Part shown: piece after piece, positions 6,142 to 30,656 of the stretch | Layout of the letters: every line of letters starts with the position of its first letter | How positions within the stretch are numbered: the first letter of the stretch is position 1 | Source of the DNA: Melghiribacillus thermohalophilus | GTDB taxonomy: Bacteria; Bacillota; Bacilli; Bacillales; Alkalibacillaceae | Reading direction: 5' to 3' | Assembly (NCBI RefSeq): GCF_004342905.1 | Contig: NZ_SMAN01000015.1 | Span: 1 to 64,000 of the forward strand | DNA: 64,000 bases | Made by a program: the position numbers and the translations under genes | The notes under the pieces: model-generated | What the model saw: the letters and a program-made list of their open reading frames with translations, nothing else | What the model was told of the DNA's origin: nothing | Database searches by the model: none

Positions 6142-6195
6142 GATTGACCTATTTCGATCAATTTAATTCTTTTTCACCAAAATATGACAAAATTG

Positions 6196-6224
6196 TTGAT
6201 TTTAGAATCAGTCTCAATTAATAT
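6196..6224 (+). promoter_or_regulatory. Candidate sigma-A promoter of the motAB leader
   Basis: TTGATT at 6196-6201, a 17-base spacer and TAATAT at 6219-6224. The predicted start near 6231 lies just upstream of the c-di-GMP-I aptamer. A sigma-D site was not recognised here. Confidence 0.6.
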
Positions 6225-6261
6225 ATAGAAAGAAGCGTGTTTATAAGATCAAAAGGTAAAT

Positions 6262-6358
6262 ATAGGATTGAAAAAGGCAAACCTATCGAAAGGTAGGGAC
6301 GCAAAGCTTCAGATCTAAAGTTCTTAATAGAACCATGATGGCTGGGCTGCCAATCTAC
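6262..6358 (+). promoter_or_regulatory. Cyclic di-GMP-I riboswitch (GEMM-I)
   Basis: The leader shows the conserved class-I c-di-GMP aptamer features: GGCAAACC, a GAAA tetraloop hairpin (CCTATCGAAAGGTAGG), GGGACGCAAAGC (tetraloop receptor), a second hairpin GTTC-TTAATA-GAAC at 6320-6333, and GGCTGGGCTGCC, closed by P1 GATTG/CAATC (6266-6270 with 6351-6355). It precedes motA by about 170 bases and feeds into a terminator at 6364-6390. The segment TTAATAGAA (6324-6332) is complementary to TTCTATTAA (6368-6376) in the terminator, giving an alternative pairing. It should couple stator synthesis to c-di-GMP level; the sign of control cannot be read directly. Confidence 0.95.
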
Positions 6359-6363
6359 GGTTG

Positions 6364-6390
6364 GCTATTCTATTAAGGATAGCTTTTTTT
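6364..6390 (+). terminator. Riboswitch expression-platform terminator
   Basis: Hairpin GCTATTC/GGATAGC (7 bp, one G-T pair) with a TATTAA loop, followed by seven T residues. It sits directly after the c-di-GMP-I aptamer and 135 bases before motA, so it is the likely ligand-controlled attenuator. Confidence 0.9.
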
Positions 6391-6525
6391 AGTTTTTTGA
6401 AAATTCGGACGCTTGATCGGCCCAAACCCTTCGTAACAGTAATGGTGGGCTTGTGATATTTGATAAGGTAGTGAGCATTTTCTTTAAAAAAATACAAAGT
6501 CACTTAAAAGATTGGAGAAATGGTT

Positions 6526-7320
6526 ATGGATAAAACATCACTGATCGGCTTGATATTAGGATTAATTGCCGTTTTTGTAGGTATGGTACTGAAGGGTGTT
6601 GCCATCACCAGTTTAATCAACCCGGCTGCCATTGTAATCATTATTGTAGGTACCATAGGAGCAGTAACCATTGCTTTTCCAACAAATGAAATTAAAAAAG
6701 TTCCTACCCTCTTCAGAGTTATTTTTAAAGAACAGCAGCTTAAAAGCAATGCAGAAATTATTTCGATGTTTTCCACATGGGCCGATCTCGCCCGTAAAGA
6801 AGGGTTGCTGGCCCTGGAGACTAAACTGGATGAAATTCAAGATCCTTTTTTAAAAAATGGAATGACTCTCGCGATCGACGGAAAAGATACGGATTATGTC
6901 CGTGAAGTCTTAACGGAAGAAATCGAGGCTATGGAAGAGCGGCATAGATTAGGTGCATCCATTTTTACTCAGGCAGGTACATATGCTCCTACACTCGGGG
7001 TTCTGGGAGCGGTAGTCGGGTTAATCGCTGCACTGGCAGATATGAGTGATATTGATAAGCTGGGGCATGCCATATCCTCGGCATTTGTGGCGACATTGCT
7101 CGGGATTTTTACCGGATATGTTCTCTGGCACCCTTTTGCAAACAAGCTGAAGCGAAAATCCCAGCAGGAAGTGAAGCAAAGGGAGTTAATGATTGAAGGC
7201 ATTCTTTCTATACTCGAAGGGGAAGCCCCAAGGGAAATTGAAACGAAGCTTTCATCCTATCTACCGGTTGTTGAAAGGCGAAAATTTTTAGAGGAGGGGG
7301 TAGCAGGTGAGGAAACATAA
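6526..7320 (+). CDS. motA: Flagellar motor stator protein MotA
   Basis: A 264-residue inner-membrane stator subunit with four helices and a large cytoplasmic loop. Sequence such as MDKTSLIGLILG, EIKKVPTLFRV and GTYAPTLGVLGAVVGLIAAL matches B. subtilis MotA closely, more than MotP. With MotB it forms the ion channel that drives flagellar rotation. ATG at 6526 gives GGAG eight bases of spacing; the ATG at 6520 is too close to it. It overlaps motB by 14 bases. The c-di-GMP-I riboswitch and terminator upstream imply second-messenger control of stator synthesis. Confidence 0.95.
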   Translation: MDKTSLIGLILGLIAVFVGMVLKGVAITSLINPAAIVIIIVGTIGAVTIAFPTNEIKKVPTLFRVIFKEQQLKSNAEIISMFSTWADLARKEGLLALETKLDEIQDPFLKNGMTLAIDGKDTDYVREVLTEEIEAMEERHRLGASIFTQAGTYAPTLGVLGAVVGLIAALADMSDIDKLGHAISSAFVATLLGIFTGYVLWHPFANKLKRKSQQEVKQRELMIEGILSILEGEAPREIETKLSSYLPVVERRKFLEEGVAGEET

Positions 7321-8053
7321 AAAAAAGGAAAACCCGGAACATATTGATGAGTCCTGGCTCATTCCCTATGCCGATTTACTGACGCTTCTTCTGGCTCTAT
7401 TTATTGTATTATTTTCCATGAGTACCATTAATGCCGATAAATTCTCGAGAATGGCGGAAGTATTTAAAGTGGAATTTGACAGCGGTACAGGTGTGTTTGA
7501 ATATCCAAGTCCCCTTCCGTCTAATCAGATGCTTTCCCCTGATGAAGTGGAGAAGGTCAATAAAGCCAACGAACATGATGATATGGAAGAGCTCCGACAA
7601 ATTCAGGCAAAAATCGAACAATACATTGAAGAAAAAGATATGTCGGACACATTTGAAACTTCTTTATCTGATGAAGGACTTATGCTCACCATTCGAGATA
7701 ATGTATTATTCGATTCAGGAAGCGCAGAACTTCGCGAAGAACATCGAAAAGTAGCCCGTGAAATATCTCATTTGTTGGTGATTAATCCTCCTCGGAATAT
7801 CATTATTAGCGGACATACCGATAACGTTCCGATCAGGACGGTCAATTATTCGTCCAACTGGGAGCTCAGTGTCATGCGTGCTGTGAATTTTATGAAAATC
7901 ATTCTGGAGAATGAGAAGCTGGATCCGAGGTGGTTCAGTGCCAAGGGTTATGGAGAATATCAGCCGATTGCTTCAAATCATACAGAAGAAGGAAGAGCCA
8001 AAAATCGGCGTGTGGAAATTTTGATTTTGCCCAGACAACAAAATGGCCAGTAA
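7307..8053 (+). CDS. motB: Flagellar motor stator protein MotB
   Basis: A 248-residue partner of MotA: basic N-terminus, one membrane helix (about 18-40) carrying the ion-binding aspartate D23 in PYADLLTLL, then a linker and a C-terminal OmpA-like peptidoglycan-binding domain (ISGHTDNVPI; NRRVEILILPR). GTG start inside the motA end, with GGAGGGG upstream. Whether this stator uses H+ or Na+ cannot be settled by eye; alkaliphilic bacilli with a single stator pair can use either. Confidence 0.95.
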   Translation: MRKHKKKENPEHIDESWLIPYADLLTLLLALFIVLFSMSTINADKFSRMAEVFKVEFDSGTGVFEYPSPLPSNQMLSPDEVEKVNKANEHDDMEELRQIQAKIEQYIEEKDMSDTFETSLSDEGLMLTIRDNVLFDSGSAELREEHRKVAREISHLLVINPPRNIIISGHTDNVPIRTVNYSSNWELSVMRAVNFMKIILENEKLDPRWFSAKGYGEYQPIASNHTEEGRAKNRRVEILILPRQQNGQ

Positions 8054-8100
8054 TGTTCTGGAGATAAAAAAATGGATGTTTGAATGGGGGAGAGATGTCT

Positions 8101-8688
8101 ATGACAAAAAAATGGACAAAGAGTGAAATTAATTATTTAAAAAATAATGTCGGTAAACTTTCCATTCCGACCATAGCTAAAAATCTAGAAAGAACAGAGA
8201 CATCCGTGGAAATGAAAATGAAAAAGCTTGGTCTGGATCATACCAGAATTCAGTCGGGACTGATTACAATGGGAGAACTGGCCAGATTATTAAAAGTTGA
8301 TCGAAATACCGTCAAAAGCTGGGTGGATAATCATGGATTGAAATGTATAAAGCGTATTACCCGCAAACATAAAAAATATTACCTTCTGGATCCTGTTGAA
8401 TTTTGGAATTGGGCTGATGGAAACAGAGACAAAATACAGTTCAGCCAGATCGAACCACATTCGATACCACCAGAACCTGATTTTGTTGAAGAAGAGCGGC
8501 GGAAGGAGATTCAAGGGGGAATCGAAAAATACCGGGTGTATCGGTTCTGGACAGTTAAAGAGGAAAAAAAGCTGCAAGAATTGAAAAAAAAGGGATATAA
8601 AAATAGTGAAATAGCAACGATCCTGAATCGATCATCTATCAGTGTTCAGCGAAAATTAAGCAGGATTCAGGAAGATGTAACTACATAA
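8101..8688 (+). CDS. Uncharacterised DNA-binding protein with several helix-turn-helix segments
   Basis: A 195-residue, basic protein with three DNA-binding-like parts: residues about 4-42, a SANT/GcrA-like segment (WTKSEINYLKNNVG ... SVEMKMKKLGL); about 55-105, an excisionase/MerR-type HTH (ITMGELARLLKVDRNTVKSWV); and about 150-192, a second SANT-like repeat (RFWTVKEEKKLQELKKKGYKN ... SVQRKLSRI). Similar proteins occur in phages and bacilli without known function. ATG at 8101 has GGGGGAGAG six bases upstream. It begins 47 bases after motB with no terminator between, so it is probably in the c-di-GMP-controlled transcript. A terminator follows at 8780-8806. Confidence 0.7.
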   Translation: MTKKWTKSEINYLKNNVGKLSIPTIAKNLERTETSVEMKMKKLGLDHTRIQSGLITMGELARLLKVDRNTVKSWVDNHGLKCIKRITRKHKKYYLLDPVEFWNWADGNRDKIQFSQIEPHSIPPEPDFVEEERRKEIQGGIEKYRVYRFWTVKEEKKLQELKKKGYKNSEIATILNRSSISVQRKLSRIQEDVTT

Positions 8689-8806: not shown

Positions 8807-8922
8807 GTTGCCAAAATCCTGCAGGAATTTAATGCTGCTGCAATACTACAATAATAAAAAGAAGAATTCTAAGTCGAACGAATAAATGCTATACAGAAAA
8901 AAACAGGAATCGACAACTACTT

Positions 8923-9178
8923 TGAGCCATTGACTCTCCTGTTTGGGCCGTCACGCATTGACTATGGGCCATAGGTTCCCCTGTATGGGCCGTCACGCAC
9001 TGACTATGGGCCATAGGTTCCCCTGTATGGGCCGTCAGCGCCTCTGTTTGGGCCATCCGCATCCCAGTTTGGGTCGTCACGCACTGACTATGGGCCATTG
9101 ACTCTCCTGTTTGGGCCGTCACGCACTCACTATGGGCCATTGACTCTCCTGTTTGGGCCGTCACGCACTCACTTTGGG
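8923..9178. repeat. Tandem minisatellite, exact 21-bp period
   Basis: Twelve consecutive units, each starting TGGGCC or a one-base variant, begin at 8923, 8944, 8965, 8986, 9007, 9028, 9049, 9070, 9091, 9112, 9133 and 9154, with a partial thirteenth at 9175. Two unit types mostly alternate (TGGGCCGTCACGCACTGACT and TGGGCCATTGACTCTCCTGT), giving a 42-bp higher-order repeat. The right end enters the last codons of the minus-strand gene at 9169-9645. The minus-strand frame through it is open only because 21 is a multiple of three; I do not regard it as a protein. Confidence 0.95.
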
Positions 9179-9645
9179 TAATGATCCCCATTATGTCCTG
9201 GTTTGATTTTCTTTCCATCAAAAACGGTTTCAATGACAGCAAGTAGCAGTGCCAATATGATTTCCGCTTTCAGAGATATTGTAATGCTTTTCATCATCTC
9301 ATCCACGATAAAGAGAACCAGCCAGTTTGATGCGACTTCAACAAAGATTCGGGTGAACAAGAGCTTTACTGGTTCTGATTGATTACGGACAGAGACATAA
9401 AAAATAACTTTGAAAACCAATTCGATCATGAAACTAAGAATAAAAAAACCAACAACAAAAACAGCTAATGACCAGGGAGAAGTATAATAAACACCGAGAA
9501 TTTCAAAAGCCCCTGCAAAACCAAAGAAAAACAGGCCCAGGACAAATCCGATCGCCATAATAATAAGAAGAACTATTCCTGCAATAGTCGCTATTTTTGT
9601 TTTCAGATCCATATCCCGAAATGATCGATCGTGATGTTCTGACAT
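9169..9645 (-). CDS. YrvL-like integral membrane protein
   Basis: A 158-residue protein with about four membrane helices (LLIIMAIGFVLGLFFFGFAGAF, then FVVGFFILSFMIELVFKVIF, and two more) and short soluble ends. The opening helix and the following GVYYTSPWSLAVFVVGFF resemble the YrvL family (PF14184), annotated as regulatory membrane proteins with little direct evidence. ATG start with AGGGGGA upstream. Its last codons and stop lie in the first unit of the adjacent minisatellite (the CCA-AAG-TGA bases belong to the repeat), so the C-terminus may have been altered by repeat growth. Confidence 0.6.
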   Translation of the reverse strand: MSEHHDRSFRDMDLKTKIATIAGIVLLIIMAIGFVLGLFFFGFAGAFEILGVYYTSPWSLAVFVVGFFILSFMIELVFKVIFYVSVRNQSEPVKLLFTRIFVEVASNWLVLFIVDEMMKSITISLKAEIILALLLAVIETVFDGKKIKPGHNGDHYPK

Positions 9646-30360: not shown

Positions 30361-30540
30361 AAAAATCTCTCCTTCATCATACAATCTGTTATTAGTATGA
30401 GCAACATCTGATTTGACATTAGAAAAAAAGCTGGAAGGATTTTTTAATTTTTTTCAAAATTGTTTGACATATCAAAAATTTAACTTTATAATACGATTTA
30501 ACTTCACATGATTAAACAATCGAATATGTAAATGGATAAC

Positions 30541-30656
30541 TCTTATCAAGAGTGGCGGAGGGACTAGGCCCAATGAAGCCCGGCAACCTTCAGGCTTTTT
30601 TTCAGCTTGAAAAGGTGCCAATTCCTACAGGTCATCATGATCTGAAAGATAAGAGG
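30541..30656 (+). promoter_or_regulatory. SAM-I (S-box) riboswitch
   Basis: The leader carries the S-box core: AGAGTGGCGGAGGGACTAGG, CCCAATGAAGCCCGGCAACC, AAAAGGTGCCAATTCC, and P1 CTTATC (30542-30547) with GATAAG (30648-30653). GATAAGAG (30648-30655) is exactly complementary to CTCTTATC (30684-30691) in the terminator, which forms the antiterminator when SAM is absent. With SAM bound, P1 forms and the terminator ends transcription, so metYX is off in methionine plenty (known logic of the family). Confidence 0.97.

Follow-up and report, generated by a model that had tools for sequence, protein, structure and literature searches.

A predicted c-di-GMP-I OFF riboswitch ahead of the stator genes motAB in a bacterium with a second stator pair

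Cyclic di-GMP is known to stop motors via proteins whose targets are already completed stators. A riboswitch controlling stator genes would govern the supply of stators itself. The closest described systems are given here from available excerpts of the cited papers. MotI (YpfA/DgrA) is a c-di-GMP clutch on the MotA stator (PMC7288161), and for FlgZ/MotCD of Pseudomonas aeruginosa c-di-GMP affects just one of two stators (PMC9039648). For many of the genes under GEMM control, a role in motility, virulence or biofilm formation can be assigned (PMC3766115), and the c-di-GMP riboswitch of mcpA (Bc1) in B. cereus/thuringiensis is classed as 'off' (PMC7793685, PMC5816809). In B. thuringiensis lacking three phosphodiesterases, motA and motB transcripts were little changed (PMC5816809). 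A literature search largely restricted to papers outside subscription named no riboswitch ahead of motA or motAB.

The window, the 64,000-nucleotide stretch of Melghiribacillus thermohalophilus DNA that was analyzed, likely carries, ahead of motAB, a c-di-GMP-I OFF riboswitch that acts by terminating transcription; we infer its ligand, its direction of switching in vivo and its consequence for the motor. The RF01051 model (c-di-GMP-I, GEMM-I) matches positions 6266-6354 of the plus strand with 86.5 bits against a curated cut-off of 35 (E 1e-15), and the alignment covers model positions 1-87 of 87 with zero broken pairs; a purpose-built model, R1, whose source alignment includes this very sequence, gives 90 bits. 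The conserved core is complete in the alignments (GGCAAA, a GAAA loop, GACGCAAAG, CUAA and a 3' GCC), and it includes single residues which we take to be ligand contacts. An earlier sequence-only reading of this DNA had called the GEMM-I core intact and proposed a search against RF01051 as the check, and the full-length match bears it out. The 5' strand of P1, GATTG, lies at 6266-6270 with its partner strand at 6351-6355, and the apical hairpin GTTCTTAATAGAAC within P1b occupies 6320-6333, of which 6320-6332 doubles as an antiterminator strand. Since the score exceeds the cut-off and the RNA sits in a same-strand leader with an expression platform and a plausible c-di-GMP target, it is to be regarded as a regular c-di-GMP-I riboswitch, unremarkable within its established class and predicted to bind c-di-GMP. 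Elsewhere in the window, Rfam matches only a SAM riboswitch at 30540-30655 (99.5 bits) and a tRNA at 279-351.

The genome to which the window belongs (G000; 3.0 Mb in 46 contigs) has nine GGDEF matches and an EAL gene, which makes c-di-GMP plausible as the signal. Given that ligand identity is predicted from sequence, the RNA might be a GEMM-I variant that senses a different cyclic dinucleotide, 3',3'-cGAMP for instance, but this is highly improbable with RF01051 as the best family at 86.5 bits, a core of GGC and GCAAAG as in most other leaders of alignment A1, and GGDEF and EAL genes in the genome. For the leader of the congener examined (G001), the best name in Rfam, RF03167 (c-di-GMP-I-GGC), was set aside because, where the model reads GCGAAG, the congener reads GCAAAG.

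Downstream on the same strand lie motA (6526-7320; NCBIfam MotA NF005997, 424 bits against a cut-off of 340) and, overlapping it, motB with a GTG start (7307-8053; NCBIfam MotB NF005831, 374 against 301), confirming motAB as the target named earlier. The motA start is placed at 6526 from the NF005997 profile, which begins at residue 3 of an open reading frame opening at 6520. A putative, weak sigma-A-like promoter read from the sequence, TTGATT-17-TAATAT at 6196-6224 on the plus strand, agrees with the consensus at 8 of 12 positions, below the scan threshold; its equivalent in the congener is TTGATT-17-TACTAT. The spacing between terminator and motA is 135-141 nt, and a promoter within that stretch, if present, would bypass the switch. 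It is quite unlikely, though, that the aptamer is functional while motAB is driven mainly from a different promoter or the effect of the switch is limited to trimming basal expression. The long leader beyond the terminator and the weak upstream promoter would fit such an arrangement, but no sigma-70-type match of at least 9/12 was found on the plus strand at 6145-8200, sigma-D-like sites occur at chance level, and the pairing of riboswitch with motA recurs in six genomes. A sigma-D promoter was likewise rejected as a candidate because matches in G000 are at chance level only. Behind motB, a short gene at 8107-8688 has two helix-turn-helix-like parts; it was not found behind motB of the congener, where a HAD-like ORF (by eye) is present. 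An ORF at 8889-9242 on the minus strand is made of 'AHSQCVTAQTGESM'-like repeated units, a short tandem repeat.

The aptamer, the terminator, the alternative pairings, the gene order and the second stator were each obtained by computation. A terminator-like hairpin follows the aptamer, as the sequence-only reading had stated: the intrinsic terminator at 6363-6390 (plus strand) consists of a stem pairing 6363-6371 with 6376-6384, GGCTATTCT-ATTA-AGGATAGCT, and then TTTTTT. The aptamer strand proposed to pair with it does so over a longer stretch than had been claimed. In addition to TTAATAGAA (6324-6332) being the reverse complement of TTCTATTAA (6368-6376), there are, with wobbles allowed, 13 contiguous pairs between 6320-6332 and 6368-6380. 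Among 5000 shuffled hairpin terminators, 13 reach this length (8 among 5000 for the congener, which is not independent of G000). A second alternative pairing, absent from the earlier reading, is the 7-bp anti-P1 hairpin GCCAATC-TAC-GGTTGGC at 6349-6365 on the plus strand, which sequesters the P1 3' strand and the last GCC of the aptamer; the final three bases of the anti-P1 strand are the first three of the terminator. The congener has the same alternative pairings, with TGC as the anti-P1 loop and GGCTATTC-TATTAA-GAATAGCC as the terminator counterpart, in which two pairs are altered by wobble changes (G-C and U-A in place of the G-U and U-G of the window). Since the two genomes are close, this conservation is weak evidence.

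Folding, based on secondary-structure energies only, points to the direction of the switch. Terminator and aptamer share no positions, and in the computed folds the aptamer is compatible with the terminator and the unbound state blocks it. The three basal pairs of the terminator have a probability of ~0.03 in G000 and ~0.45 in the congener in unconstrained folds, and of 0.86-1.0 and 1.0, respectively, with the aptamer helices forced. Because P1 and P1b held by c-di-GMP would leave the terminator free, the predicted logic is OFF, with c-di-GMP stopping transcription of motAB. Riboswitch, terminator and switch pairing are thus supported as parts of the visible switch reported earlier, and its direction, which had been left out, is OFF by its anatomy. 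A weaker stand-in for the ligand, in which only the P1 3' strand was kept unpaired, did not raise the terminator (0.11 in G000, 0.00 in the congener), suggesting that P1b must be held as well. The forced aptamer lies ~11-12 kcal/mol above the free states, and the switch must therefore act during transcription, by tight binding. In growing transcripts of the G000 leader folded with no ligand, P1 has a mean probability of 0.38-0.44 at 98 and 101 nt, with 0.44 at 98 nt, the stage before 6359-6365 is complete. At 107 nt the anti-P1 hairpin has reached 0.97, at 122 nt the antiterminator is at 0.96, and at the last lengths the antiterminator stands at 0.5-0.67 and the basal terminator pairs at 0.16-0.29. 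In the corresponding series for the congener, the antiterminator leads at 117-120 nt (0.88) and the terminator prevails at the last length (0.8).

The forced-aptamer test was applied as a control to 38 leaders, comprising 36 c-di-GMP-I loci from G000 and relatives plus the motA leaders of the congener and of G009. A terminator-like hairpin lies within 90 nt in 28 of the 38, and in 10 of these 28, including the window, the congener and G009, the basal pairs went from at most 0.10 to at least 0.7 when the aptamer was held. The test therefore does not label every leader a switch, and it is blind to ON switches. An ON switch, in which c-di-GMP binding blocks termination and raises motAB, appears unlikely at this locus. 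C-di-GMP riboswitches of that kind exist, for example ahead of cbpA in the B. cereus group according to the accessible part of the source (PMC7793685), and the logic of one further motA leader (G341) is unclear in folds, but the terminator here is separate from the aptamer and compatible with it, and both of its competitors are built from aptamer strands.

Under OFF logic, the switch would operate as follows. At low c-di-GMP, newly made GGTTGGC (6359-6365) would pair with GCCAATC (6349-6355), disrupting P1 and occupying the base of the terminator, after which 6320-6332 could pair as antiterminator with 6368-6380 and motAB would be transcribed. At high c-di-GMP, P1 and P1b would be locked earlier, allowing the full 9-bp terminator to form and transcription to stop. 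High c-di-GMP would then lower MotAB, and MotPS, which has no such switch, could stay.

The link between a c-di-GMP-I riboswitch and motA is rare. Within the family, a MotA/MotP-type match is present in 21 of 22 genomes, and a match of at least 59% to the MotA of the window only in G000, G001, G009 and G018, three of which have the riboswitch. As the same-genus comparison consisted of one further genome and G052 is alone in its own family, searches at those levels gave no further leaders. A survey of the order took motA-type genes with at least 51% identity to the MotA of the window or at least 59% to that of G009. Its first set had the riboswitch at 4 of 85 motA loci in 84 genomes (G000, G001, G009 and G052), its second set of 30 loci, 22 of them new, added G379 and G341, and its third set had it at none of 60 further loci. 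In all, six of the 167 loci, from 166 genomes, have the riboswitch; the source lists were limited by E-value and the upstream regions mostly spanned 600 bases, so that a more distant switch would be missed. In G052 the aptamer ends ~370 nt before motA. Among named species, the 80 closest motA loci all lack the riboswitch ahead of motA; these species may overlap the surveyed genomes. An ordinary association with all motA genes was rejected on these counts (6/167 and 0/80).

A tree of 44 MotA proteins from a selection of the fetched loci (45 were submitted and L249 dropped out) places G000 and G001 with MotA of Lysinibacillus, Kurthia, Sporosarcina and Psychrobacillus (support 89/97), and G009, G052, G379 and G341 within a separate group of nine (100/100). 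In the leaders of G009, G052 and G379, the P1 3' strand pairs over 9-10 bp with the loop and 3' arm of the terminator, which was matched by 16-19 of 1000 shuffles each; as modeled, this is the same OFF logic in a different layout. The best such pairing in G341 is at chance (149 of 1000 shuffles), and in G000 and G001 it is not above chance, the anti-P1 hairpin and the P1b strand acting instead. Equilibrium folds with the P1 3' strand held unpaired changed little (0.78 to 0.92 in G379, 0.96 to 0.97 in G341). Well-supported branches of the tree force at least two changes of riboswitch label, which together with the differing platforms suggests separate origins of the riboswitch-motA link; the tree allows two or more gains, or an older presence with losses.

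A second stator pair is encoded on contig 16 of G000 (MotP, 432 bits against a cut-off of 394; MotS, 330 against 264), adjoining ccpA (521 against 442), and no c-di-GMP-I match was found at this locus. A switch on both stators was rejected as a general arrangement, with c-di-GMP-I matches at none of 22 MotP-like rows, one gene being split over two of them, among 26 family loci. In B. subtilis, MotAB is H+-driven and MotPS Na+-driven according to the available text (PMC9039648). All six riboswitch genomes match the stator query a second time, compared with 63 of 166 genomes overall, with P 0.003 if the genomes were independent, which they are not. The second stator-type gene is MotP in G000 and is 32-35% identical to MotA in G001, G009 and G052; for G379 and G341 it is a match count only, and in some other genomes the second match is a further MotA gene (G146).

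G000 has two flagellin-type matches and one PilZ protein, for which YpfA (5vx6, E 1.2e-25) is the only relative by sequence with a solved structure, and a YpfA/MotI-type brake protein is thus encoded alongside the riboswitch. The sequence-only reading had placed stator synthesis, rather than brake proteins, under direct c-di-GMP control. The motAB leader does have the switch, but 'stator synthesis' is too wide given that MotPS lacks a c-di-GMP-I riboswitch, and the contrast with brake proteins does not hold in a genome that also encodes this relative. Nor are stators the sole motility target, as G000 has further riboswitches ahead of an EAL gene, of a GGDEF gene and of a CheW/chemoreceptor pair.

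The class is common here, with seven matches in G000 and at least one in 136 of 149 relatives. In G000, L001:1501-1588, L003:1501-1588 and L004:1501-1585 lie ahead of the EAL, MASE3-PAS-GGDEF and CheW plus chemoreceptor genes, respectively, and fold as OFF in the forced-aptamer test. The aptamer at L005:1501-1603 (minus strand) has a strong terminator and no sizeable same-strand gene close behind it, only tiny ORFs, one of which encodes 26 hydrophobic residues with a good ribosome site. Switches also precede an RHS-repeat protein (L006:1-1287, minus) and an acidic coiled-coil-like protein without a Pfam match (L007:366-1475, minus), the L007 aptamer deviating from the core (GGTAC, TCACAAAG). 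Two Robertmurraya species, Bacillaceae UBA7792 and Bacillus sp. cl95 carry a c-di-GMP-I riboswitch (L063:4983-5071, L040:5056-5142, L051:4944-5032 and L038:5143-5234) that lies ~1.7-1.9 kb downstream of motA and precedes a short SinI-like ORF convergent with a SinR-like gene (names by eye); a SinI-like target would bring a biofilm anti-repressor under c-di-GMP.

What is new at the motAB locus is the target of a known device, and the two-stator setting gives it a testable role in stator choice. It is possible, at somewhat short of an even chance, that in two-stator Bacillales rising c-di-GMP shuts off MotAB synthesis and leaves MotPS, in parallel to the MotI clutch, and that this arrangement evolved more than once. 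If so, a riboswitch would pick the power unit of the motor, remodeling it at the level of stator supply. Since only one of the two stators has the switch, stator exchange driven by c-di-GMP could be tested with one leader mutation. The locus resembles the c-di-GMP-I class (RF01051) in its aptamer score and its leader with an intrinsic terminator, and differs in its motAB target, in an antiterminator strand located in the apical hairpin of P1b and in a separate anti-P1 hairpin adjacent to it. As far as the available parts of the sources describe them, mcpA Bc1 is likewise a c-di-GMP riboswitch ahead of a motility-related gene in Bacillus, but its target is a chemoreceptor rather than a stator. 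FlgZ/MotCD shares the action of c-di-GMP on one of two stators, though by protein binding and on another stator pair, whereas a riboswitch is found here. Finally, the MotI clutch shares the action of c-di-GMP on the MotA stator but works at the protein level, whereas control of synthesis at the RNA level is predicted here, in a genome that also encodes a YpfA relative.
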